From Mariprofundaceae bacterium (GTDB lineage: Bacteria > Pseudomonadota > Zetaproteobacteria > Mariprofundales > Mariprofundaceae), in NCBI GenBank assembly GCA_021772895.1, contig JAJFLC010000019.1, positions 1 to 40,267 on the forward strand: 40,267 bases of DNA. The letters run 5' to 3'. Positions 29,468 to 40,267 of this stretch are shown one piece after another. A model generated the notes under the pieces. It was given only the letters and a program-made list of their open reading frames with translations, was not told the origin of the DNA and made no database searches. The position numbers were made by a program, and so were the translations under genes. Within the stretch, counting starts at the first letter, position 1, and each line of letters starts with the position of its first letter.

Positions 29468-30000
29468 GGCAAGCAATCAGGGGCCACGCATTGTGTCCGT
29501 ATATCAATACGACCCGTCACATTATTAACCATAACAATAAACTCTCTATCTGAACCGACAGAAGAAACTCTAATGTTTTTATTGTCCGCGGTACCACGCC
29601 GTCGAAATGTAAACGTCCGGCTTGCTGTCGTCGTCGGATCAGAAGAGGCACAAGTACCGCAGACAAATTTTTGGAGATTTATATTGTCAAAACTATAACT
29701 CTGACCAAGTGCATCCGTTACCCCATCATTGACGTAATCAAAAACAATAGCTTGCTCCGTCCCCGATGATAACGCTCTTAAGCGTGCTTGCTGTAGAATA
29801 CTGGTAATCTGTTCTTTAGCTGAATCCACACGTGTATCTTCCCGCATGTTGCCGTAAGCGCCTATGGCAATCGCCAGCAAGATTGCGCCAATGGCAATAG
29901 TTACCATCATTTCGACAAGTGTGAATCCAGACTGAAAAAATCTAACTTGCGCGTTATCAATTCTTACGTTTAGGTTTGGCTGAATGCGTACACTTTCCAT
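29464..30000 (-). CDS. FimT/FimU (GspH-type) minor pseudopilin
   Basis: This prepilin-like protein of 178 residues has the type III signal FFQSG followed by FTLVEMMVTIAIGAILLAIAIG with Glu5. Next is DSAKEQITSILQQARLRALSSGT, the pattern of the GspH/FimT domain (helix then beta sheet). Two CxxC-like pairs are visible (VCGTCASS and TQCVAPDC), which may form disulfides. The leader is about 24 residues if ATG 30000 is used, and the frame is open to 30051. The 5' end overlaps the divergent mrcA start by 17 bp, so promoters of one gene must lie inside the other. Confidence 0.82.
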   Translation of the reverse strand: MESVRIQPNLNVRIDNAQVRFFQSGFTLVEMMVTIAIGAILLAIAIGAYGNMREDTRVDSAKEQITSILQQARLRALSSGTEQAIVFDYVNDGVTDALGQSYSFDNINLQKFVCGTCASSDPTTTASRTFTFRRRGTADNKNIRVSSVGSDREFIVMVNNVTGRIDIRTQCVAPDCLP

Positions 30001-32347
30001 CATCCTGAAAATAGTGGCCTCCTTAAGTGTTTTTACTGTGATAGCCGTCACTATATGCTACCTCTATTTTTCCAGCAACCTCCCTGAGCTTACCAAACTT
30101 TCAGCCTACCAACCGCCACTTGTTTCGCGGATTTTTAATACGGATGGTGAACTGCTGGCTGAATATGCCGATGAGCATCGTATTCTTACACCCTTCGAAG
30201 ATATTCCCGAACAACTTCGTAACGCTTTTCTGGCCGCAGAAGATCAACAATTTTATGAACACCCGGGCATCAATCCTGCCCGCATTCTTTCGGCCGCTCT
30301 TGCCAATATTCGTGCAGGGCGCACAGTGCAAGGTGGCAGCACCATTACACAACAGGTCGCTAAGAACTTCCTGTTGTCGTCAGAAAAAAAACTTTCACGT
30401 AAAATCCGCGAAGCCATTCTCTCGTATCGCATTGAGCAGGCATTTTCCAAGAATGACATCCTTTACCTCTATCTCAACCATATTTATCTTGGACGCGGCG
30501 CTTACGGTGTCACATCTGCAGCATGGCGTTATTTTGGCAAACGTCTTGATGAACTGACTTTAAGTGAATGCGCGATGCTGGCAGGACTACCCAAGGCGCC
30601 CAGCTACTATGCACCACACTTAAAACCGGAAGCCGCAAAGAAACGCCGCAATACTGTCCTGTATTTGATGGAACGGAGCAGCTTTGCCAAATCTGACGAT
30701 GTTAAGCACGCACTTGAAGAAGCGTTAACCGTCGCACCCCTGCCACAAAACAAACTGACAAATGCATATGCCAATGAAGTTCACCGTCAATTGGTTCAAA
30801 AATTTGGTTTACAAACCCTAAGAAAGCAGGGCCTGAACATCATCATACCTTACAACGCCAGCGCAGAAGCACATGCTGTTCGCAGCATTCGTGAAGGCAT
30901 CCTTGATGTAGAGCAGCGGCAATTATACCGCATTCCTGACCATCATGAACCTGAAGCGTGGCCTGCCCTCATTGAAAAATGGGCCGCAGCACAACCCGAA
31001 GGTGAGCCACAGCCTTTGAGCAAAGATCAGATTATCCCCGCACTTATTGAAAAGGTTCAGCGCAATGGTGACCTCGCAATCAATGATGGCAAACGACAAT
31101 GGTTGCTCACAAAACCTCAATGGCAATGGCAGACATGGCCAAAGGAGATGCCTGCTGACACGAAAAAACGGAAGCTTACATGGATCGCTGGTGATGAAAT
31201 TGTCCTGCAAGGTGATGGAGAAGGCGGCGTTCGCCTTACTCAACAACCATCCATCGAATCTGCACTTTACAGTATTGACCTGAAATACGGCACAGTCTTA
31301 GCAAGAGTCGGCGGTTTTGATTTCAACTTTGGAGATTTTGACCGGGTAAGCCATGCCCAACGACAGCCGGGCTCAGCCTTCAAACCCTTGCTTTATGCCA
31401 CCGCACTTGAACAGGGATTAACCCCTGCCAGCATTGTCATGGACACGCCTGTTGTATTCGACAGTCAATCTACAGACAATTTCTGGCGTCCTGAAAACTA
31501 CAAAAACAAATTTGCAGGTCCGGTGACACTGCGCGATGCATTGGAACACTCACGCAATCTCGCTTCTATCAAATTATTACAAAACATTGGCATTCGTACA
31601 TTTACCGACAAATTACGCGATTTTCCCTTTGATCATGACTTCCCACAACAACTCGCACTCTCGCTTGGTGCCACTGAAGCACCCTTGGAACAGCTAACCG
31701 AGTCCTACGCCATATTAGCCAGCGGTGGCAAAAAATGGTCCCCAGTCAGCATTCAACAGGTAGAAGATCGCAACGGCAAAAGCCTGCATCGTTCCGTTGC
31801 AGGCCATCGCTGTCAGGTATGCCATGTCGACCCCGTTCTTTCAGTGAGCCAGGGCATGCGCCCGGCGGAGCAAATCCTTGAGCCAACCACCAGCTTTCTG
31901 ATTACCAACATGATGAAGGGTGTTATCGATAACGGTACCGGACGCCGTGCAAGAGCACTTAGACGCCCGGCAGCCGGAAAAACAGGCACGACCAATAAAC
32001 AGGTTGATGCCTGGTTCATTGGTTATACACCGCAGATATTAACCGGTGTATGGACGGGGCGCGATACGCCAACACCTATGGGAAAAAGCGAAACGGGTTC
32101 CCATGCTGCCTTGCCAACATGGCTGGCATTTATGCAAAGCGCTCACAAAAACAAAGAGGTTCAATCTTTCACACCGCCCGAAGGCATTGAATGGGCCTTG
32201 ATCGACCGAAAAACCGGCAAACTTGCAAATGCTGAAACCAAATCGCCCCTATTGGAGGCTTTTAAAGAAGGAAGTGCGCCGACTGAAGAACCGCAGACAG
32301 GACCAAAAACCGAAGAAAACGGCGATTTTTTCGATTCGGATATTTAA
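29984..32347 (+). CDS. mrcA: Penicillin-binding protein 1A (class A PBP)
   Basis: This bifunctional peptidoglycan glycosyltransferase/transpeptidase has 787 residues, a normal length. It has a transmembrane anchor near residues 6-28, a GT51 domain with EDQQFYEHPG, GGSTITQQVAKN and YLNHIYLGRGAYG, an OB-like insert (about 250-420) and a transpeptidase domain. The catalytic motifs are S464-A-F-K467, S-R-N (near 523) and K666-T-G668. An odd feature is a loop before KTG with C610-Q-V-C613-H614. The ATG at 29984 has only a weak ribosome-binding site (TAGG). Confidence 0.94.
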   Translation: MRTLSIILKIVASLSVFTVIAVTICYLYFSSNLPELTKLSAYQPPLVSRIFNTDGELLAEYADEHRILTPFEDIPEQLRNAFLAAEDQQFYEHPGINPARILSAALANIRAGRTVQGGSTITQQVAKNFLLSSEKKLSRKIREAILSYRIEQAFSKNDILYLYLNHIYLGRGAYGVTSAAWRYFGKRLDELTLSECAMLAGLPKAPSYYAPHLKPEAAKKRRNTVLYLMERSSFAKSDDVKHALEEALTVAPLPQNKLTNAYANEVHRQLVQKFGLQTLRKQGLNIIIPYNASAEAHAVRSIREGILDVEQRQLYRIPDHHEPEAWPALIEKWAAAQPEGEPQPLSKDQIIPALIEKVQRNGDLAINDGKRQWLLTKPQWQWQTWPKEMPADTKKRKLTWIAGDEIVLQGDGEGGVRLTQQPSIESALYSIDLKYGTVLARVGGFDFNFGDFDRVSHAQRQPGSAFKPLLYATALEQGLTPASIVMDTPVVFDSQSTDNFWRPENYKNKFAGPVTLRDALEHSRNLASIKLLQNIGIRTFTDKLRDFPFDHDFPQQLALSLGATEAPLEQLTESYAILASGGKKWSPVSIQQVEDRNGKSLHRSVAGHRCQVCHVDPVLSVSQGMRPAEQILEPTTSFLITNMMKGVIDNGTGRRARALRRPAAGKTGTTNKQVDAWFIGYTPQILTGVWTGRDTPTPMGKSETGSHAALPTWLAFMQSAHKNKEVQSFTPPEGIEWALIDRKTGKLANAETKSPLLEAFKEGSAPTEEPQTGPKTEENGDFFDSDI

Positions 32348-32358
32348 TTCCGCCTGAC

Positions 32359-33492
32359 TCACACCCTGATAAGAGAAACACCTTCTTTCACAAAAAGCCA
32401 AGCTGCTTTAATCAGTTGCTTTAGACGTTTGCGAATAAAATTACACTTTACACAGCCACTTTGCACCATCTGCTTGCGAACTTCATACCTCGGATAGATC
32501 GTTTCACGCCAAAAATGAAGTCGGTGAGAAAAATCAGGCTGCATACGAGCAAACAAGCGTTCAGCCAAAAAAGGAATGATTTCATGTTTCATAAAACGCC
32601 TGAAAAGACTTCGTTCCACAAATCCCATTTTCGGCCTGATTATTTCAAGAACATGATCTGGCACTTGTGCCCCAAGATGCTCTTTTACATAAGAGAGGGC
32701 ATAAAAACAGGGTCGCTCAAGTTTGTACTCCTGAATTCCTTCAAGAATTTCATCCCATTGATCTGATTGATCGACTTCATTTGCCAACAATGCGATATCA
32801 TAGAGCCATATCAGGCGTTCAAAAGAATGTTTCAAGGCATGAAAACAAAGATACGGCAAATTTACCCGGGGATGCAGCAGCAGTGATTCTTCACCAACAA
32901 GTTCGCCTTCCTGTGCATATTTCAAAAAATCATCAATGCGGAGTGGCGTCAGATGTTCCCACGTCCGAATCCGTTCAATGCCCAAGGGTTCATGATGCAA
33001 ATCAATAGGTATGTCACCACGCGCATAAATATTACTGTATTGAGAATCAGGACGAAAACCAATGTCCCAAAGCGCCTGTTTGGCATCGAGCATCTGTCGC
33101 TCATCAATAAGCAGGTCTATATCGCTGATTGGACGTAAGGCAGCTTTTTCAGCATACAGCATCTCTGTAACCGCCACGCCACGCATACAGATGACCTGAA
33201 TATTCGACTGATGCAGGGTTGCCAAAATACGCCCGCAGGCATGCTGCATGCGCAGATATCTCAGATTCATTTCATGCAGGCGAGCGGTAAGTGACGCTTT
33301 CATATCATGGTTTATATTCAGATCAGAAACACCTGTCATTTTCTGCCAGACCAGACCCTGCACACCCTCTTCAATCACCAGATTCAACAATTCAACATTT
33401 CCAACATCAGCATCTGACATGGGCCTGACATCTGCTATAATTTCACCCAGACGCTGCCTCAAAGATGCTCGCTTAATATTAGAACTAGCCAT
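32359..33492 (-). CDS. NTP_transf_5-like nucleotidyltransferase family protein
   Basis: This protein of 377 residues belongs, as I recognise it, to the nucleotidyltransferase family that occurs with RiPP and sugar-type clusters (Pfam NTP_transf_5). The acidic pair is in RPISDIDLLID (about residues 117-127), and IDLHHEPLG and the helical C-terminal half with LCFHALKHSFERLIWLYDIALL (landmark HALKHSFERL) follow. The N terminus is helical. It points away from the Cys-rich gene and shares the intergenic region with it. In lasso-peptide clusters such proteins can occur together with an HPr-kinase-like enzyme, as they do here. The substrate is unknown. Confidence 0.75.
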   Translation of the reverse strand: MASSNIKRASLRQRLGEIIADVRPMSDADVGNVELLNLVIEEGVQGLVWQKMTGVSDLNINHDMKASLTARLHEMNLRYLRMQHACGRILATLHQSNIQVICMRGVAVTEMLYAEKAALRPISDIDLLIDERQMLDAKQALWDIGFRPDSQYSNIYARGDIPIDLHHEPLGIERIRTWEHLTPLRIDDFLKYAQEGELVGEESLLLHPRVNLPYLCFHALKHSFERLIWLYDIALLANEVDQSDQWDEILEGIQEYKLERPCFYALSYVKEHLGAQVPDHVLEIIRPKMGFVERSLFRRFMKHEIIPFLAERLFARMQPDFSHRLHFWRETIYPRYEVRKQMVQSGCVKCNFIRKRLKQLIKAAWLFVKEGVSLIRV

Positions 33493-33514
33493 AAGCAAGC
33501 ACTTTAGGCTAAAC

Positions 33515-33537
33515 TATTTCGCTGTCCAGCCGAAATA
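33515..33537. promoter_or_regulatory. Inverted repeat in the divergent intergenic region, possible operator
   Basis: TATTTCG (33515-33521) and its perfect complement CGAAATA (33531-33537) are separated by 9 bp. The repeat lies midway between the divergent nucleotidyltransferase and Cys-rich genes, which is where a shared regulator would bind. Arms of 7 bp could also arise by chance in an AT-rich region. Confidence 0.35.
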
Positions 33538-33564
33538 AGCAGGATACGGGTAAGGGTGAAGGCC

Positions 33565-33975
33565 ATGAATGAAGAGTTAAAACAGCAGAAACTTGATAAC
33601 GACCAGATTGCACGGCGTAAGCTGCTAACGATGGCAGCCTATGTACCGCCTGCCATTCTTGGTGTGATGATTGCAGGTAGCAAAATTACTGAAGCTGCTA
33701 CGCCTGTTGGTGTAACCAAAAACTGTAAAGGTGGTGGAATGATTACCGTTTCAGCGGGTGGCAGTGCCTGCTGCCCATGTGTACCCACCGATCCAAAATA
33801 TAATATTATTAAATGCAATCAGGCTAAATGCAAGCTTGGCAATTGCCCTGCATGTGGCCAATTGATCTTCACTAAACAAAAGGACTGCACCAAAAAAGTA
33901 GCAAAATCCGGTTGTGCCTGTACCTGCACTGAAACACCGGTCGGCAGTGGCTTCTGGCGCATGTCAGGCTGCTAA
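33565..33975 (+). CDS. Cys-rich small protein with twin-arginine leader, candidate substrate of the maturation cluster
   Basis: This 136-residue protein is of unknown family. Residues 1-16 are polar. A17-R-R-K-L-L22 resembles a Tat motif and is followed by the hydrophobic stretch TMAAYVPPAILGVMIAG and a possible cleavage site near TEA|AT. The mature part (about 45-136) has 13 Cys: C54, C69, C70, C72, C84, C89, C94, C97, C108, C117, C119, C121 and the C-terminal C136. It is basic and Gly-rich. ATG 33565 has AAGGG 8 nt upstream. The gene directly precedes a radical SAM enzyme and a PqqD-like protein, so I infer it is their substrate. It could instead be a metal or iron-sulfur protein. Confidence 0.7.
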   Translation: MNEELKQQKLDNDQIARRKLLTMAAYVPPAILGVMIAGSKITEAATPVGVTKNCKGGGMITVSAGGSACCPCVPTDPKYNIIKCNQAKCKLGNCPACGQLIFTKQKDCTKKVAKSGCACTCTETPVGSGFWRMSGC

Positions 33976-34007
33976 CGCACTTTCCAAATTCGAAACCAAA
34001 CTAATTA

Positions 34008-35135
34008 TTGACTGAAACCACGTTTACTCCAATCTATCTTCCCGATGGTCAGGTTGTTCTGGCCGAACAGAATGATAATTCCTGCTATCGTCTTTACGGT
34101 TTTGATAACGAAGTCTCAATCTCAGGTGCCTTTGCTGAAAGTTTCAAAGCCCTGATCAACAACAACGCATCTGATAGCGATATGACCCGACTTCATTCGC
34201 TTGAACAACAGCCGTGGCTAAATGGATTAAGTCAGGCATCTACAAAACCAGTGATACCACCACAGCAACAACTGATTAGTTCGCAGCTTGGCATGTTATT
34301 CATCGAAGTGACTGACAAATGTAATGAACGCTGTATTCACTGCTACGCAGACTCCACACCCGAACGCACTGATTTTCTCCCTCTTGCTAGGATCACTGAT
34401 ATTCTGGATCAGGCACTCGATTTTGGCACACCCTTTGTTCAATTTACCGGTGGAGACCCTCTGATCCATCCTAATATTATTGAAATCGTGAGTTATGCAG
34501 CCAAACGCCCTTTCAAGGGCATTGAAATCTACACCAATGGCCTGCTACTTCATGAGAAAATGCTCAAAAAACTCGCGCCTTACAAACCTCAACTATCATT
34601 TTCCATTTATGCGGATCGCCCCGAAATTCATGATGCCATCACACGTCTTCCCGGCAGCTGGAAACGGACACTCGATGCCATGAAAAGATCAAATGCTGCT
34701 GGACTAAAAATCAGGGCTGGTATCGTTCTGATGGAAGAGAATATCGAGTGTGCGGAAAGGATGCCTGCCTTCCTTCATGAACATCTGGGCATGGGTATCG
34801 ATCAAATTCGTTTTGATGCCGTCAATCAGGTTGGGCGTGGCAAAGCGCTAACCATGCTACAGGGCATCACACCCTCTCACTCGTCCTCATCCGGCCCGGA
34901 CCGAAAAGGAAAACTCTGCATTGCAGCCAATGGTGATGTATACCCATGTATCTTCGCCCGAAACTTCAAACTGGGCAATATTTCCAATCAGTCATTAAAG
35001 ACCATCTTTGCCTCTATGCAGCACAAAAATCCTGATAAAAATGGCAGTAAACGTTGGAACTCGTGCTCTGAACAACTAAGCTGTGGTGATTGTCGAATCA
35101 TTGCCTATACCCTTGAAGGAAGTAACCGTGTCTGA
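34008..35135 (+). CDS. Radical SAM/SPASM peptide-modifying enzyme
   Basis: This 375-residue protein has the SAM-cleaving cluster motif C105-N-E-R-C109-I-H-C112, the GGDPL motif (near 152) and a C-terminal SPASM domain. The SPASM Cys residues include C304, C314, C353, C359 and C362, enough for auxiliary Fe-S clusters. Residues 1-90 are a separate N-terminal region that may be a recognition domain. The architecture matches enzymes that make cross-links in ribosomal peptides (PqqE, AlbA, QhpD groups). The only possible start is TTG 34008, 33 nt after the Cys-rich gene and without a visible ribosome-binding site, so translation may depend on coupling. PqqD overlaps its end by 8 nt. Confidence 0.85.
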   Translation: MTETTFTPIYLPDGQVVLAEQNDNSCYRLYGFDNEVSISGAFAESFKALINNNASDSDMTRLHSLEQQPWLNGLSQASTKPVIPPQQQLISSQLGMLFIEVTDKCNERCIHCYADSTPERTDFLPLARITDILDQALDFGTPFVQFTGGDPLIHPNIIEIVSYAAKRPFKGIEIYTNGLLLHEKMLKKLAPYKPQLSFSIYADRPEIHDAITRLPGSWKRTLDAMKRSNAAGLKIRAGIVLMEENIECAERMPAFLHEHLGMGIDQIRFDAVNQVGRGKALTMLQGITPSHSSSSGPDRKGKLCIAANGDVYPCIFARNFKLGNISNQSLKTIFASMQHKNPDKNGSKRWNSCSEQLSCGDCRIIAYTLEGSNRV

Positions 35136-35424
35136 ACAGCCAGAAACCAAAGTTCCCGAATATCCTGTTAAACGTCCGACCATGATTGGTGAAGAGTTGG
35201 AGGGTATGGATGAAGTCGTCTATGTAGATATCGACTCCGGCACCAATGTCTCATTGAATGTGCTTGGAGCTACCATACTTGAGCTGTGTGACGGAAAGCA
35301 CTCTATCGAAAACATCATCGATCTTGTTCTCGAAAACCTGTCCGGAGAGCGCGAGCAGATAAAAAAAGATATTCATCATATCCTGATAGAATATGCCGCA
35401 TACGGTCTCTTTATTGAGGAGTAA
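35128..35424 (+). CDS. PqqD-family peptide-binding protein
   Basis: This 98-residue protein has the PqqD fold (RiPP recognition element). The pattern VYVDIDSGTNVSLNVLGATILELCDGKHSIENIIDLV (landmarks LNVLGATILELCDG) is followed by an acidic helix and ends AAYGLFIEE. PqqD proteins deliver the precursor to a radical SAM enzyme. The frame is open to 35083, but GTG 35128 has AAGGA 7 nt upstream and is chosen. It overlaps the radical SAM gene's end by 8 nt, which is typical of tightly linked partners. Confidence 0.85.
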   Translation: MSEQPETKVPEYPVKRPTMIGEELEGMDEVVYVDIDSGTNVSLNVLGATILELCDGKHSIENIIDLVLENLSGEREQIKKDIHHILIEYAAYGLFIEE

Positions 35425-35433
35425 GCCTTTAAC

Positions 35434-36273
35434 ATGTGGCAGCGAACTTTCGGCGTAGGAAATATCTCTGTAAGGCTTGAGTCTGACCAGCAACGTTGCA
35501 CAGATGATATCCAAGCCATCACGTCCCTGTTTCCAGATTCAGAAAGACAACCCGGCCTGATATTTTCGATTAAACAACGGAAAAAAATCACTCTTTGTGT
35601 AAATGATGAAGAACTTTGGCAAAGCAATGACTCAGGTGAAATAAGTGCCGCATTTGAAGTGCACCTCTATATTCGAATCGTTCAGGAGCTGGTTCCTGAA
35701 CTTGCCTCCATCCATGCTGCCAGCATCGGCATTGATCAGCAGGCATGCATCTTTGCCGGTGTGTCTGATGCGGGCAAAAGCAGCATGTGTACCAAAGCTG
35801 TCATTGAAGGAAGTCATTATCTCTCAGACGAATTTGCCCTGCTTAACAAAACAGGTGAAGTTGAACCTTTTCCCCGGCCCCTACAATGGGGAAAAGAACA
35901 ACATCCGGCTTTTACGCATGATATGATGGCAAAAGCGGGCATCAAACAAACCACCTTCCAGTTTCCAGATACCGAAGGAAACAATGTATCTGCTCTGTTA
36001 TGGCTACCTGAAAAAGTTCAACATACGCCGCTACCGCTTCGCTGGGTTATATTTCCACGCTTTGATGCATCCGTTTCCACACCTGAGCTTACAACCATCC
36101 GACGTGGTGAAGCATTAATGGAACTGCCGCAACATTTACATCAACAGCAACGTGCCGACATCATGCTTCAAATGCTAAATCAGCGTATCCCAAAAGATGC
36201 TACCTTCCATCGGCTTCGTTTTTCAAATGTACATAAGGCTTGGGAGCTGCTTAAACATTCCCTTTTTTCATAA
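35434..36273 (+). CDS. HPr-kinase-like protein (HprK-related) of the maturation cluster
   Basis: This protein of 279 residues has a Walker A loop G109-V-S-D-A-G-K-S116 and a downstream LSDEFALL acidic motif with FPRPLQWG, as in the kinase domain of HPr kinase. The canonical HPr-phosphorylase regions and HPr itself are absent here, so another phospho-acceptor is likely. Related kinases phosphorylate the C-terminal residue of lasso-peptide precursors (paeninodin). I recall HprK-related proteins beside PqqD-like proteins as a recurring genomic module. Its end overlaps the convergent ATP-grasp gene by 23 bp. Confidence 0.78.
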   Translation: MWQRTFGVGNISVRLESDQQRCTDDIQAITSLFPDSERQPGLIFSIKQRKKITLCVNDEELWQSNDSGEISAAFEVHLYIRIVQELVPELASIHAASIGIDQQACIFAGVSDAGKSSMCTKAVIEGSHYLSDEFALLNKTGEVEPFPRPLQWGKEQHPAFTHDMMAKAGIKQTTFQFPDTEGNNVSALLWLPEKVQHTPLPLRWVIFPRFDASVSTPELTTIRRGEALMELPQHLHQQQRADIMLQMLNQRIPKDATFHRLRFSNVHKAWELLKHSLFS

Positions 36274-37450
36274 GCTTTCTTTTTCGAACATTTTGAAACG
36301 TCTTATAAAAAAGGCTCAGGCTCGCTGATCTATCCAGACCATCCCAGGCACCCAAAATCATATTGGGTCTCTTTTTACGATAATCTCGAATGGTCACAAA
36401 AAGATTCTTAAGCTGCGCTATCCATATTCGATTTCCTTGCCCTTTCACAACCCAGTCCGGTTCGTGATAACACGTTGCAATCATACGTACATATTCGGCT
36501 TTCGAGCGTTGCAGACACGCCTCTTCCAGCCTCACACCCTCAGCACATATTTGGTAATAAGCTGATAACATCCCTGCCCCATCAGCCTCTGCAAGACAAC
36601 TCCAGCCTGAAAGCCGAGGATTCACCTCCATGACATACCATTGTCCATCAGCATCCTGTTTGCATTCCACTTCGGCAAAACCCTTCCAATTCAAAGTTGA
36701 AAGCAAGTCTCGCGCGCCCTCATAAAGTTCTGGAATCCACTCTGCTTTTGCAGCAGTCGTCTCTCCAAACAATCCAAATTTCGTTTTGGCAACCCGTTGG
36801 CGCCGGCAGGTAAACCCCCGCACCGGTCTTGAATCATGATCAAAGAGAATCAATGCCGAAGCCATTCGATCAACATCGCCTTCAACAAACTTCTGAACCC
36901 GATGATACTGATCAGCATTCTTTTCTACATCCTGAGATTCAAGAAAACGTTGCAGTGCCGAAGAATCGGCAAATACTTGAAACCTGTCCCGCTCTGATTT
37001 GATCATCAACGGAAAAACATAACTCTCCGTATTTTCATACAAATCACTGACCCGCACAATCTCCATTGATGCGACTTTCAACGTATCTGTTTCTGGTAAG
37101 TTCTCAGTTGCAAGCGCTTGTTCGACCGTCTCTGCATCCACAGTCAGAAAACGCATGCCTATCTTTTGAAGTAACTGCTGATAAGTAGCCGTAAATTTGG
37201 CAAGATCATCCACACATGGCAGCCATACGCCAGCAAGCCCCGAACTTTTAAGCCCAAGCGCATAAGTACCATTCAACTGCTCATCTAAACACTGTAATTC
37301 AACTGATCGCTGGACGTATCGGCTTTTTCTGGCCCATCCCTCAATGGGCCAAAATGTCCCTTCTACCGGGATACCGGCACGCCCTGCTGCCTGCGCCAGA
37401 GCAAACATCTGTGAATCCTGAAGATCATGAATGATAAACGGTGTATTCAT
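36251..37450 (-). CDS. ATP-grasp domain enzyme of unknown substrate
   Basis: This protein of 399 residues has ATP-grasp features: a middle domain with FPLMIKSERDRFQVF (nucleotide-binding Lys), and the metal-binding WYVMEVNPRLSGWSCL near residues 270-282. The N-terminal part (HDLQDSQMFALAQAAGRAGI) is a pre-ATP-grasp Rossmann-like domain. Members couple ATP hydrolysis to carboxylate-amine bond formation. The acceptor is unknown. It is co-transcribed with the transporter upstream (4-nt overlap) and convergent with the kinase gene. It could tailor the Cys-rich product or make a small-molecule ligand. Confidence 0.75.
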   Translation of the reverse strand: MNTPFIIHDLQDSQMFALAQAAGRAGIPVEGTFWPIEGWARKSRYVQRSVELQCLDEQLNGTYALGLKSSGLAGVWLPCVDDLAKFTATYQQLLQKIGMRFLTVDAETVEQALATENLPETDTLKVASMEIVRVSDLYENTESYVFPLMIKSERDRFQVFADSSALQRFLESQDVEKNADQYHRVQKFVEGDVDRMASALILFDHDSRPVRGFTCRRQRVAKTKFGLFGETTAAKAEWIPELYEGARDLLSTLNWKGFAEVECKQDADGQWYVMEVNPRLSGWSCLAEADGAGMLSAYYQICAEGVRLEEACLQRSKAEYVRMIATCYHEPDWVVKGQGNRIWIAQLKNLFVTIRDYRKKRPNMILGAWDGLDRSASLSLFYKTFQNVRKRKLMKKGNV

Positions 37451-38595
37451 GGTTTATGTGGCAATCTCCATGCCAATAACATACCCATCAATGCAATGAA
37501 CGCACAAACAAAAAAAGCCTGAGTGTATCCAGCGTAACTTACAATCACGCCACAGCCCATAATACCTACCGTGCTTCCCAGCCCAAATCCACAGGCTGAA
37601 TACCAACCCTGCGCTGTGGCATGGCGGTTTGCCGGCGCAAGTTTTTTTACCCATACAATGGCTGAAAGATGGAATGCGGCAAAACTTGCTGCATGTAATA
37701 ACTGTAACAATAACAATCCATACCATGCTTCTGTCATGCCAATACCCAGCCAACGCATGGATGCAAGCAGAAGCGAAATCGACAATACCCAGGCTGGAGC
37801 AGCCTTTTGCAATGGTTTGGACCATCCCCACATCAGAACAATCTCCGCCAGCACACCAAAAACCCAAAATGCCCCGACCTGCCACCCTTGATAACCAACC
37901 TCAACCAGATACAGACTATAGAAACCATAATAGGCTCCATGCGATACCTGCATCAAAAAACTAACAATCAGGAGCGTGATAAAAGCCTGCCCAAACCGGG
38001 CCTCACCGGTTTCAGGTCTATCTGAAACAATATGCTGACTTGGAAACCCGCGTGCGGCGAAGGCGAGTAATAACATCAGACCAAACAACCACCACGGAAA
38101 CTGGCTCATATGACCATCTACAAGCCATATACCACCTGCAAGAGAAGCCAAAATAAAGCCAATTGATCCCCAGACACGAAGGCGCCCATATTCAGCCAGT
38201 GCCGCTTCAGAAATAGAGACAGAAAGGCCATCCGTTAAGGGCAAAATAGCGGCCCATAGGATACCGAATAATAATACAACTAACGCCAACCACCCGATAT
38301 CACTCACATAGTCCATGGCAATCGCAAAAATCGCTGCTAAAAGCGAAGCAATCACAATAAACAATCTGCTATGGCCTGATGCATGACGATCCGCCAAATG
38401 TCCAATCCAGGGAGGAGAAAGCACTTTGGCAACAGCGATAAGCCCTGTCATCACGCCAATCATCATCACGTCCAGTCCTTTTTCATCCAGATAGATCGGA
38501 AAAAAGGGTAAAATAAGGCCCATGGCTGCAAAATATGCAGCGTAAAAAAGCCGAATGGCATGCAATGATATGGAGGGAATCATAACGCACAGCAT
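37447..38595 (-). CDS. MFS transporter, phenylpropionate transporter (HcaT)-like
   Basis: This protein of about 382 residues has twelve predicted hydrophobic helices and belongs to the major facilitator superfamily, closest by eye to the MFS_1_like/HcaT group. The N terminus has YLDEKGLDVMMIGVMTGL and the loop PPWIGHLADRHAS, the A-motif region. EYGRLRVWGSIGFIL is typical of this group. The start may be ATG 38595 (weak GGGGTGG site upstream) or ATG 38583, which matches other family N termini. It overlaps the ATP-grasp gene by 4 nt. In this context it might export a product or precursor. Confidence 0.85.
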   Translation of the reverse strand: MLCVMIPSISLHAIRLFYAAYFAAMGLILPFFPIYLDEKGLDVMMIGVMTGLIAVAKVLSPPWIGHLADRHASGHSRLFIVIASLLAAIFAIAMDYVSDIGWLALVVLLFGILWAAILPLTDGLSVSISEAALAEYGRLRVWGSIGFILASLAGGIWLVDGHMSQFPWWLFGLMLLLAFAARGFPSQHIVSDRPETGEARFGQAFITLLIVSFLMQVSHGAYYGFYSLYLVEVGYQGWQVGAFWVFGVLAEIVLMWGWSKPLQKAAPAWVLSISLLLASMRWLGIGMTEAWYGLLLLQLLHAASFAAFHLSAIVWVKKLAPANRHATAQGWYSACGFGLGSTVGIMGCGVIVSYAGYTQAFFVCAFIALMGMLLAWRLPHKP

Positions 38596-38665
38596 AGCGT
38601 TCCACCCCGGCACTTACAGCATTCATACGCTTGCAGCATTGCAGCGAATCGATAATCATCCTCGC

Positions 38666-39697
38666 ATGTCACACATCACTCGGTCTATTCTATGCATCGT
38701 CATGCTTCTGTTTATCTCATCCTGTGAGCAAAAAAGTGGTTTAACGCTTGCACCGGAATGGCAGACAGAAATCATCAGCGAATGGCAGAATGAGCTGCCC
38801 GACATGCTGGTTCTTTCACCTGATGGAAAAACACTCTTTATCAGCTGTGAAACAACTGCCGACATGCTCGCACCATCTCTGATTCGAATCGCACTTGATA
38901 CGGGAGAAAAAGAGACCCTTTTATACGGCTTAGGCCGTGCCGATGGTTTAAAAATGGATCACAAAGGAGACCTCTGGCTGGGCGAAGAGGTTGATGATGG
39001 TTTGATTGTTCACATCACATCGCCTGCCACCATTGCACCGGAACAGCGTCTGGATCGAAGTAGATTGGTGAGTAGCCATCCTGATATTATCGCAGTTGCA
39101 TCTGCGGGCCGTTTTTCACATGAAGGCATGGTTTTCTCAAAAGATCATCAATATCTTTACCTCGCAGATGAATGGTCTGAAGGCTGCCTTTATAGATATA
39201 CGTTGAATAACAAAGCACTTCACGTTTTACATAAAACAAAAGGCTGGCTCAAAATCAACACACCGCAGGATTCAAGATTTAAAGCTGAAGTATTACATGG
39301 TCAATATTTTGACCGGCTGGAAGATATGGAACTTCTCCCGGATGGCCGAATACTCATGGCAGAAACAGGTTCACAAGCTAAACAAGGTCACATCTGGCTA
39401 CTTGATGACAGGAACAGTATGCCCAAAGTCTCTTCTTATCTTCAACATACCGATATCAAACATCCTGACAATCTTGAGTGGGATCAAAAACGCCATTGGT
39501 TATGGATCACCGATGATAGCTCGCCCTCCAGGTTATGGGCATGGGATGGCAAAAATATAAAACAAATAGCATCTCATCGTTTTGCTGAAATTACCGGCGT
39601 AGAAACCGATCATCATGGCTCCGTCTATTTCAACCTTCAGCACAATATCTTTGGCCCGGACTTAACGCTTAAAATGAATCGTTCCCCAAAAAAATAA
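38666..39697 (+). CDS. PhoX/DUF839-like beta-propeller lipoprotein
   Basis: This is an exported lipoprotein of 343 residues with a lipobox I-S-S-C near residues 17-20. The rest shows repeated propeller-like strands. The segments FSHEGMVFSKDHQYLYLAD, LEDMELLPDGRILMAETG and HPDNLEWDQKRHWLWITDD resemble conserved parts of the DUF839/PhoX phosphatase family, whose acidic residues bind calcium. It could also be read as an SMP-30-like propeller. The frame opens at 38555 but only the ATG at 38666 gives a signal peptide. No clear ribosome-binding site is seen, and the link to the neighbouring cluster is inference. Confidence 0.6.
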   Translation: MSHITRSILCIVMLLFISSCEQKSGLTLAPEWQTEIISEWQNELPDMLVLSPDGKTLFISCETTADMLAPSLIRIALDTGEKETLLYGLGRADGLKMDHKGDLWLGEEVDDGLIVHITSPATIAPEQRLDRSRLVSSHPDIIAVASAGRFSHEGMVFSKDHQYLYLADEWSEGCLYRYTLNNKALHVLHKTKGWLKINTPQDSRFKAEVLHGQYFDRLEDMELLPDGRILMAETGSQAKQGHIWLLDDRNSMPKVSSYLQHTDIKHPDNLEWDQKRHWLWITDDSSPSRLWAWDGKNIKQIASHRFAEITGVETDHHGSVYFNLQHNIFGPDLTLKMNRSPKK

Positions 39698-39700
39698 ATC

Positions 39701-40132
39701 ATGGATGTCTGGATCGAAACTGTCATAAGGCAACTCATCCTCTACTCACTGCCTGTGCTCATATCGCTGACGTTTGTCAGTTTCATCGAATGTAAATTGA
39801 TTGCAAAACCAGCACCACATCCATTTCATGCCATCAGTTGGATGGGGACATGGTTGCCATGGATCGCTGCTATATTCTTTTCCCGAGCAGTCATTTTTGC
39901 CCTTCCCCGACCTGTTGAATCTGGAAAACATGCCGCTTTATACCGTTGCTCAGGTCACATCATACTTTGCATCACAGGTTTTTTGCTTTATTGCTGGAGC
40001 CTGAACCATCAACCTCCCACAGGTCTTCCTCCATTGCATCTCTGGTGGGCTAAAATATTGATGTTTTTTAACCTGTGCATGATATGCATGCACCTTCTTC
40101 CTCTTCCAGGCATGTATGTAGGAGAGTCGTAG
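39701..40132 (+). CDS. Small membrane protein, possibly M50-like and truncated by an IS30 insertion
   Basis: This protein of 143 residues has about four hydrophobic segments. By eye it resembles the M50 (site-2 protease) membrane fold. HPFHAISWMGTWLPWI corresponds to the NPxxHIDPxGT landmark. LPRPVE is like the KPVPV landmark, and FFNLCMICMHLLPLPG is like NLLPIPPLDGG. The HExxH metal site is not present: the matching region reads VSFIECK. If related, it would be catalytically dead. The TAG stop (40130-40132) lies inside the inverted repeat of the IS30 element that begins near 40129, so the true C terminus is missing. It follows the lipoprotein gene by 3 nt. Confidence 0.4.
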   Translation: MDVWIETVIRQLILYSLPVLISLTFVSFIECKLIAKPAPHPFHAISWMGTWLPWIAAIFFSRAVIFALPRPVESGKHAALYRCSGHIILCITGFLLYCWSLNHQPPTGLPPLHLWWAKILMFFNLCMICMHLLPLPGMYVGES

Positions 40133-40171
40133 ATTCAAGTTGTAAGTGCAATTTTATGAATTGTTTGAGTT

Positions 40172-40196
40172 GGCAAGCTGCGTAAGCAGTCTTGCC
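40172..40196 (+). other. Hairpin in the IS30 leader
   Basis: GGCAAGCTGC (40172-40181) pairs with GCAG-t-CTTGCC (40186-40196) around a GTAA loop, giving a 10-bp stem with one bulged T. It lies 34 nt before the transposase ATG. Hairpins here could limit transposase synthesis from outside transcripts, which is inference. Confidence 0.4.
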
Positions 40197-40230
40197 CTTA
40201 TCAAACACCACTCATCAAAGGAGCACGAAC

Positions 40231-40267
40231 ATGAGCTACACGCAGCTTACCGAGAACGATCGTATCG
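40231..40267 (+). CDS. IS30-family transposase, N-terminal fragment
   Basis: The start ATG follows AAGGAG by 7 nt. The first 12 residues, MSYTQLTENDRI, match the conserved N terminus of IS30 transposases (M-S-Y-T-Q-L-T-x-x-x-R). The coding region runs off the window edge, so the DDE domain is not visible. Confidence 0.75.
   Translation, partial: MSYTQLTENDRI

Follow-up and report, generated by a model that had tools for sequence, protein, structure and literature searches.

What does a group of genes assembled around a cysteine-rich protein do in a marine iron oxidizer, and do these genes work together? The question is raised by a 40,267-nucleotide stretch of DNA from a Mariprofundaceae bacterium of the Zetaproteobacteria (assembly GCA_021772895.1), hereafter the window, which is the entire contig JAJFLC010000019.1 of a genome of 2.45 Mb. 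A preliminary description, made from the letters alone, had placed nine genes together here as a maturation cluster. All nine open reading frames (ORFs) are present at the coordinates and on the strands it reported, but the conserved unit comprises only five of them: a nucleotidyltransferase gene and, divergent from it, the genes for a precursor, a radical S-adenosylmethionine (rSAM)/SPASM enzyme, a PqqD-family protein and an HprK-like kinase. We consider it probable that this unit is a protein maturation and export cassette of the Zetaproteobacteria that resembles the pathways of ribosomally synthesized and post-translationally modified peptides (RiPPs) and is guided by a RiPP recognition element (RRE), the PqqD-family protein. 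In these iron-oxidizing marine bacteria, the cassette appears to recognise, alter and export, by twin-arginine translocation (Tat), small proteins that evolve fast. The cassette is real, conserved and unnamed; its parts are ordinary and their combination is unusual.

Whole-genome searches with each part found the precursor, the rSAM enzyme and the kinase in an identical set of 21 of 61 relative genomes, and the nucleotidyltransferase in those same 21 genomes and one more (G030); all cassette-bearing genomes belong to the window's own order, and with this kinship the counts are not independent trials. A lack of co-occurrence of the Cys-rich, rSAM, PqqD and kinase genes is what the preliminary description had named as speaking against it, and its expectation is thus borne out. 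The additional nucleotidyltransferase gene is a pseudogene with two stop codons (L128:9904-10353), and it appears to mark the place of a cassette that was lost, since the cytochrome c and pilin genes next to it are also found on the flanks of a sister genome's intact cassette. Sister genomes without any of the parts argue for the gain and loss of the cassette as a block. Every intact main locus has the order nucleotidyltransferase (divergent), precursor (one or two copies), rSAM enzyme, PqqD and kinase, with the rSAM gene present and adjacent in all of them. Among about 398 sampled Pseudomonadota, a profile search found the rSAM family in 37 genomes, all of them Zetaproteobacteria, and the profile of the precursor leader matched 36 of the 37; the rSAM gene of the remaining genome sits at a contig end, and the apparent gene separations in G007, G187 and G240 are contig ends too. 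A contig scan with a single precursor protein as the query returned no match, while with the precursor alignment as the query it returned matches only in Zetaproteobacteria, and the relatives that carry names are all metagenome-assembled genomes of Mariprofundaceae or Zetaproteobacteria. A plasmid search with the rSAM protein returned only distant rSAM enzymes. Two further leader matches were rejected as cassettes: the one in G343 looks like chance, with no cassette genes near it, and the locus in G269 turned out to be of the HPr-rel-A type described below.

The precursor has no match in the Pfam, NCBIfam or PDB searches made with it, and a PDB profile search with its leader gave nothing useful. 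The family was first gathered by position, between the nucleotidyltransferase and rSAM genes, under a permissive filter on Cys or twin Arg, and then aligned. In this alignment, the leader RRxLLKxxxYxPPxILG has RR, LL, Y, PP and G as invariant residues, the twin Arg of the window precursor being residues 17-18. After it come a hydrophobic stretch and, in the majority of precursors, an AxA/AxG site. By its sequence, the leader is a Tat-type signal with a signal-peptidase-like site, and the window's own genome encodes TatC. The set was then collected again with the leader pattern, which gave 40 precursors in which the invariance of the leader is by construction, whereas the core motif lay outside the selection. 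The motif S-x5-C-x-P, the only conserved stretch outside the leader, is found in 40 of 40 precursors, which are related sequences and so not independent; after shuffling of the cores it occurred in 2 on average and in 8 at most. Around this motif the core is far more variable than the leader, and no set of cysteines is fixed across the family: 28 of the 40 precursors have Cys-rich cores (13-17 Cys), and the other 12 have only 4-8 Cys, mostly with Lys/Asp/Ser-rich or Gly-rich tails. The family is therefore defined by the leader and S-x5-C-x-P and not by a large Cys-rich core, the trait by which it had initially been characterized and which about a third of the cores lack; the window protein itself, with its 13 Cys and its twin-Arg leader, had been read correctly.

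These cores also bear on the most durable of the alternatives, in which the Cys protein would be a metal or redox protein of the conventional kind, binding Fe-S or Cu and exported by Tat, the rSAM enzyme and the RRE would install a protein-derived cofactor, as QhpD and other quinocofactor maturases do, and the kinase would regulate. The 13-17 cysteines of most precursors fit such a protein, several loci have a small cytochrome c gene by the nucleotidyltransferase gene, and Tat is known for exporting folded, cofactor-loaded proteins. However, the low-Cys precursors are served by unchanged machinery, the core is much more variable than the leader, and no set of cysteines is shared by the whole family. 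We regard this explanation as unlikely.

The leader is also where an RRE-guided pathway would begin. The PqqD-family protein (PF05402, 41.1 bits against a cut-off of 23.4) is kin to the lasso peptide RREs TbiB1 and TfuB1 and to PqqD structures. Its Asn44 and Asp81 are invariant in 14 family members, and both positions are likewise Asn and Asp in the aligned TfuB1. LppB contacts its leader through Asp70, which bonds to the YxxP Tyr, and through Asn33, which holds the backbone around the Pro, and the RRE-binding motif of the leaders of lasso peptides and linear polyphosphorylated peptides (LPP) is YxxPx[L/V/I/F/A] (PMC13381572). The spacing of 37 residues between the two RRE positions equals that of LppB, and the Y-x-P-P-x-[ILV] of the precursors fits the form of this motif. 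Because of the RRE kinship, the spacing of Asn and Asp and the YxxPx[ILV] form, we infer that one short segment may act both as the Tat signal and as the RRE ligand.

Regarding the tailoring enzymes, the kinase is related to the HprK-related model TIGR04352 (E 3e-16); its 59.3 bits are below the cut-off of 200, as are the 47.7 bits of a relative's kinase (L060). Its P-loop is invariant in the alignment, as are the carboxylates D126, D128 and D166 (DxD...D) of the nucleotidyltransferase. Ser is the residue that HprK-like kinases phosphorylate in phospho-lasso and LPP clusters (PMC8498205; PMC13381572), and the pseudomycoidin nucleotidyltransferase adds hexoses to a peptide phosphate (PMC8498205). 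By analogy, the invariant Ser of the precursor would be the natural target of the kinase.

The rSAM enzyme matches PF04055 with 95.2 bits (cut-off 29.5) and the SPASM family PF13186 with 36.2 (cut-off 21.5), and in the alignment it keeps CxxxCxxC and most SPASM cysteines. Its tree splits exactly by precursor core type, with 0 of 500 shuffles as low. The core is therefore its probable site of action, with CxP(C) as the most plausible target. An anSME-like enzyme that oxidises the Cys (or Ser) of CxP(C/S) to an aldehyde would likewise act there, and both the invariance of CxP and an anSME among the PDB matches to the SPASM region (E 6e-4) are in its favor. However, anSME substrates carry an Arg after CxP(x), which the precursors lack, and the best overall hidden Markov model (HMM) neighbours are TIGR04053, StsB, AhbD and AlbA instead of anSME, so that this chemistry is very unlikely.

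From the gene set and its co-occurrence, the motifs of leader and core and the kinship of the RRE, we propose the following pathway. In the cytoplasm, the PqqD/RRE protein would bind the YxxPx[ILV] segment within the Tat-type leader of the precursor. The HprK-like kinase would phosphorylate the invariant Ser of S-x5-C-x-P, and the nucleotidyltransferase would extend or cap the Ser phosphate. The rSAM/SPASM enzyme would install a carbon-centred modification at CxP(C), most likely a thioether or another crosslink. The modified precursor would then leave through Tat, and signal peptidase would cut off the leader. The logic of these steps is well supported at the level of sequence, and residues suited to testing it are Y26, P29, S63, C69, P71 and C72 of the precursor and N44 and D81 of the RRE.

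The closest named relatives of the cassette are the HPr-rel-A and LPP systems. A TIGR04353 search of 249 genomes found HPr-rel-A-type PqqD in 48, with 42 above the cut-off of 35 bits. HPr-rel-A loci inspected in full have the order precursor-like protein, PqqD_rel_X, HprK_rel_A and NTP_transf_5, and a protein with RRxLLKG...PxIxTL lies near PqqD in at least 23 of 30 loci from other Pseudomonadota (L129-L158; e.g., L129:851-1381, L136:886-1410). In 20 of 23 of these leader proteins a Ser stands at +3 after an AxA-like site, comparable to Ser3 of LppA. Comparison of their leader profile with the zetaproteobacterial one gives a match (hhalign probability 90.8, E 1.2e-6), and the upstream Tat-leader protein is likely the substrate of the HPr-rel-A system, which suggests substrates for those widespread operons.

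HPr-rel-A shares with the window an RRE-type PqqD, an HprK-like kinase, an NTP_transf_5 protein and, upstream, a protein whose leader is of a similar Tat type, and the cassette could be taken for this known system with an incidental rSAM gene. In contrast to the window, most HPr-rel-A loci examined have no rSAM gene, their leader has no Tyr where YxPP has one, the Ser occupies position +3 behind the predicted cleavage site and is not part of S-x5-C-x-P, and the gene order is different. The window PqqD has no TIGR04353 match, its L066 orthologue scores 14.9 bits, the window kinase is also under its HPr-rel-A cut-off, and rSAM is in every main locus of the cassette; it is thus very unlikely that the cassette is simply HPr-rel-A. 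Outside the Zetaproteobacteria, one operon of G041 (L155:368-2699) encodes an HprK-like protein, PqqD_rel_X and a PqqE-like rSAM enzyme.

LPP clusters share with the window a discrete RRE, an HprK-like kinase, a nucleotidyltransferase, a YxxPx[V] leader, and a conserved N-terminus with a hypervariable C-terminus; the conserved Ser is the phosphate acceptor in LPP (PMC13381572), and the invariant Ser of the cassette precursors would be its counterpart. They differ in being from Bacillota, with no rSAM enzyme named, a leader not described as Tat, and an SpI-like leader peptidase and MsbA-like exporter (PMC13381572), neither of which is encoded by any window gene or conserved neighbour. The paeninodin and pseudomycoidin clusters also have an RRE (B1), an HprK homologue and a nucleotidyltransferase that decorates the phosphate, but they need a B2 protease and a macrolactam cyclase, their core is short and they have no rSAM enzyme (PMC5067487, PMC8498205). 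No ORF for such a protease or for an asparagine-synthetase-like cyclase is present in the locus, and the window proteins reach no lasso RRE model at its cut-off. The initial view of a maturation cluster around a Cys protein, with lasso-type tailoring kin and no lasso cyclase, fits the co-occurrence and the modules, whereas its statement that no named system matches gives way to a placement beside HPr-rel-A and the LPP and phospho-lasso modules (PMC13381572, PMC8498205).

The SynChlorMet and GeoRSP systems of NCBIfam resemble the window in pairing a PqqD-like protein with an rSAM/SPASM enzyme, and ScmC of SynChlorMet is HprK-like. The window proteins score far below their cut-offs, with 69.5 bits against 400 for the GeoRSP rSAM model (TIGR04303), 36.9 against 100 for its PqqD model (TIGR04302), and 13.7, 19.4 and 67 bits against 125, 100 and 400 for ScmC, ScmD and ScmF. 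The sactipeptide maturases AlbA and StsB, whose models the window enzyme matches with 88.3 bits (cut-off 850) and 94.9 bits (cut-off 625), are SPASM rSAM proteins acting on Cys-bearing ribosomal substrates, as the window enzyme would do, but their substrate type and partner genes differ. A small-molecule product of the rSAM enzyme, formed by heme-type chemistry as with AhbD and NirJ, the Cys protein being no more than a neighbour, is the least credible alternative, since the AhbD and NirJ models among its best HMM matches all score under their cut-offs, the cassette has no tetrapyrrole genes, and the enzyme strictly co-occurs with precursor and kinase and follows precursor type in its tree.

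Judged by sequence, the zetaproteobacterial cassette is best seen as an rSAM-bearing, YxPP-leader relative of HPr-rel-A and LPP, and the rSAM enzyme and the YxPP/Tat leader are what distinguishes it from these relatives. It would join on one substrate the RRE/HprK/nucleotidyltransferase and RRE/rSAM tailoring logics, formerly apart, and tie both to Tat export. Our literature search did not find this exact gene combination with an rSAM enzyme and a Tat-type leader described, nor a paper on HPr-rel-A operons, and a paper on stalk formation in Zetaproteobacteria mentions no cassette gene under the terms searched. Tentatively, the cassette may represent an undescribed Tat-exported class in which the signal is the RRE leader, the invariant Ser bears a decorated (poly)phosphate, and the rSAM enzyme crosslinks the adjacent Cys motif; together with HPr-rel-A, it would form a large class of proteobacterial RiPP-like proteins that are phospho-tailored and exported by Tat.

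Several points weigh against an RRE-guided, RiPP-like cassette. HPr-rel-A shows that a Tat leader, an RRE, a kinase and a nucleotidyltransferase can exist without an rSAM enzyme, and a second small set in G163 (L115:7186-9308), with nucleotidyltransferase, precursor and PqqD genes but no rSAM gene, about 20 kb from the full cassette, shows that dependence on rSAM in cis is not absolute. The core cassette has no RiPP-type protease or dedicated exporter, and precursors of about 90-190 residues are large for a RiPP. AlphaFold2 gave no confident precursor fold, with pLDDT values of 57 for the sequence alone and 48 with an 11-row alignment. Finally, the constraint of Tat export alone could preserve the RR, LL and Pro of the leader.

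The divergence of the locus may give an indication of its role. Between the window genome and G003, of the same genus, the flanking PBP1A (29984-32347 vs L126) and MFS (major facilitator superfamily; 37447-38613 vs L057) proteins are 76% and 79% identical, whereas the precursor, rSAM, PqqD and kinase proteins are only 35-44% identical and the nucleotidyltransferase 63%. This suggests that the cassette diverges in place, by replacement or fast evolution, which is typical of loci of biological interaction; low identity inside the cassette between conserved flanks is thus as expected of a diversifying peptide locus. Such divergence would suggest interaction with neighbours, phages or minerals in these iron-oxidizing bacteria, and antagonism and surface or mineral interaction are candidates for the role of the product.

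Table 1. Features of the cassette and its neighbours in the window.
Feature	Position	Strand	Remarks
Nucleotidyltransferase NTP_transf_5 (PF14907)	32359..33498	-	134.9 bits vs cut-off 31.2; divergent from precursor gene
Precursor, 136 aa, 13 Cys	33565..33975	+	likely start ATG 33565, preceded by AAGG
Precursor leader block RRKLLTMAAYVPPAILG	33613..33663	+	Tat twin-Arg motif overlaps YxxPx[ILV] RRE-binding motif
Precursor core motif S-x5-C-x-P-C (SAGGSACCPC)	33751..33780	+	candidate modification site
Radical SAM/SPASM enzyme	34008..35135	+	CNERCIHC at 34320-34343; SPASM Cys in C-terminal part
PqqD-family RRE	35128..35424	+	GTG start overlaps end of rSAM gene; N44, D81 invariant
HprK-like kinase	35434..36273	+	P-loop GVSDAGKSS; DE (residues 132-133) invariant
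ATP-grasp enzyme	36251..37450	-	accessory; ATP-grasp_3 27.1 bits vs cut-off 23.2
MFS_1_like transporter	37447..38613	-	accessory neighbour; 214.8 bits vs cut-off 25.2
Beta-propeller (SGL-like) lipoprotein	38666..39697	+	neighbour only; start inferred as ATG just before lipobox
Membrane protein, truncated	39701..40132	+	143 aa vs 201 aa in relative L070

The remaining four genes of Table 1 (ATP-grasp, MFS, propeller lipoprotein and membrane protein) lie outside the conserved unit as accessory neighbours. About half of the loci have the ATP-grasp gene beside that of the kinase; the MFS and propeller lipoprotein genes occur in about half or somewhat fewer. Of the family names first given to the nine genes, those of the nucleotidyltransferase, rSAM/SPASM, PqqD, ATP-grasp and MFS proteins all hold above the Pfam cut-offs, and that of the HprK-like kinase stands as a relationship below the cut-off of its model. 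The name "PhoX-like" for the lipoprotein is not confirmed, with PhoX at 22.2 bits under a cut-off of 24 and SGL, at 26.3, exactly at its cut-off. The same applies to "M50-like" for the membrane protein, which has no M50 Pfam match and no HExxH motif and is truncated in the window.

Next to this truncated gene, in the region 39701-40267, an ORF at the contig end opens with MSYTQLTENDRI, which may resemble the start of an IS30-type transposase; a plasmid search returned no match, and its own genome holds no second copy. Absent from the window, a small cytochrome c gene adjoins the nucleotidyltransferase gene in several relatives (L055:6506-6970, L058:11183-11701, L054:11775-12230).

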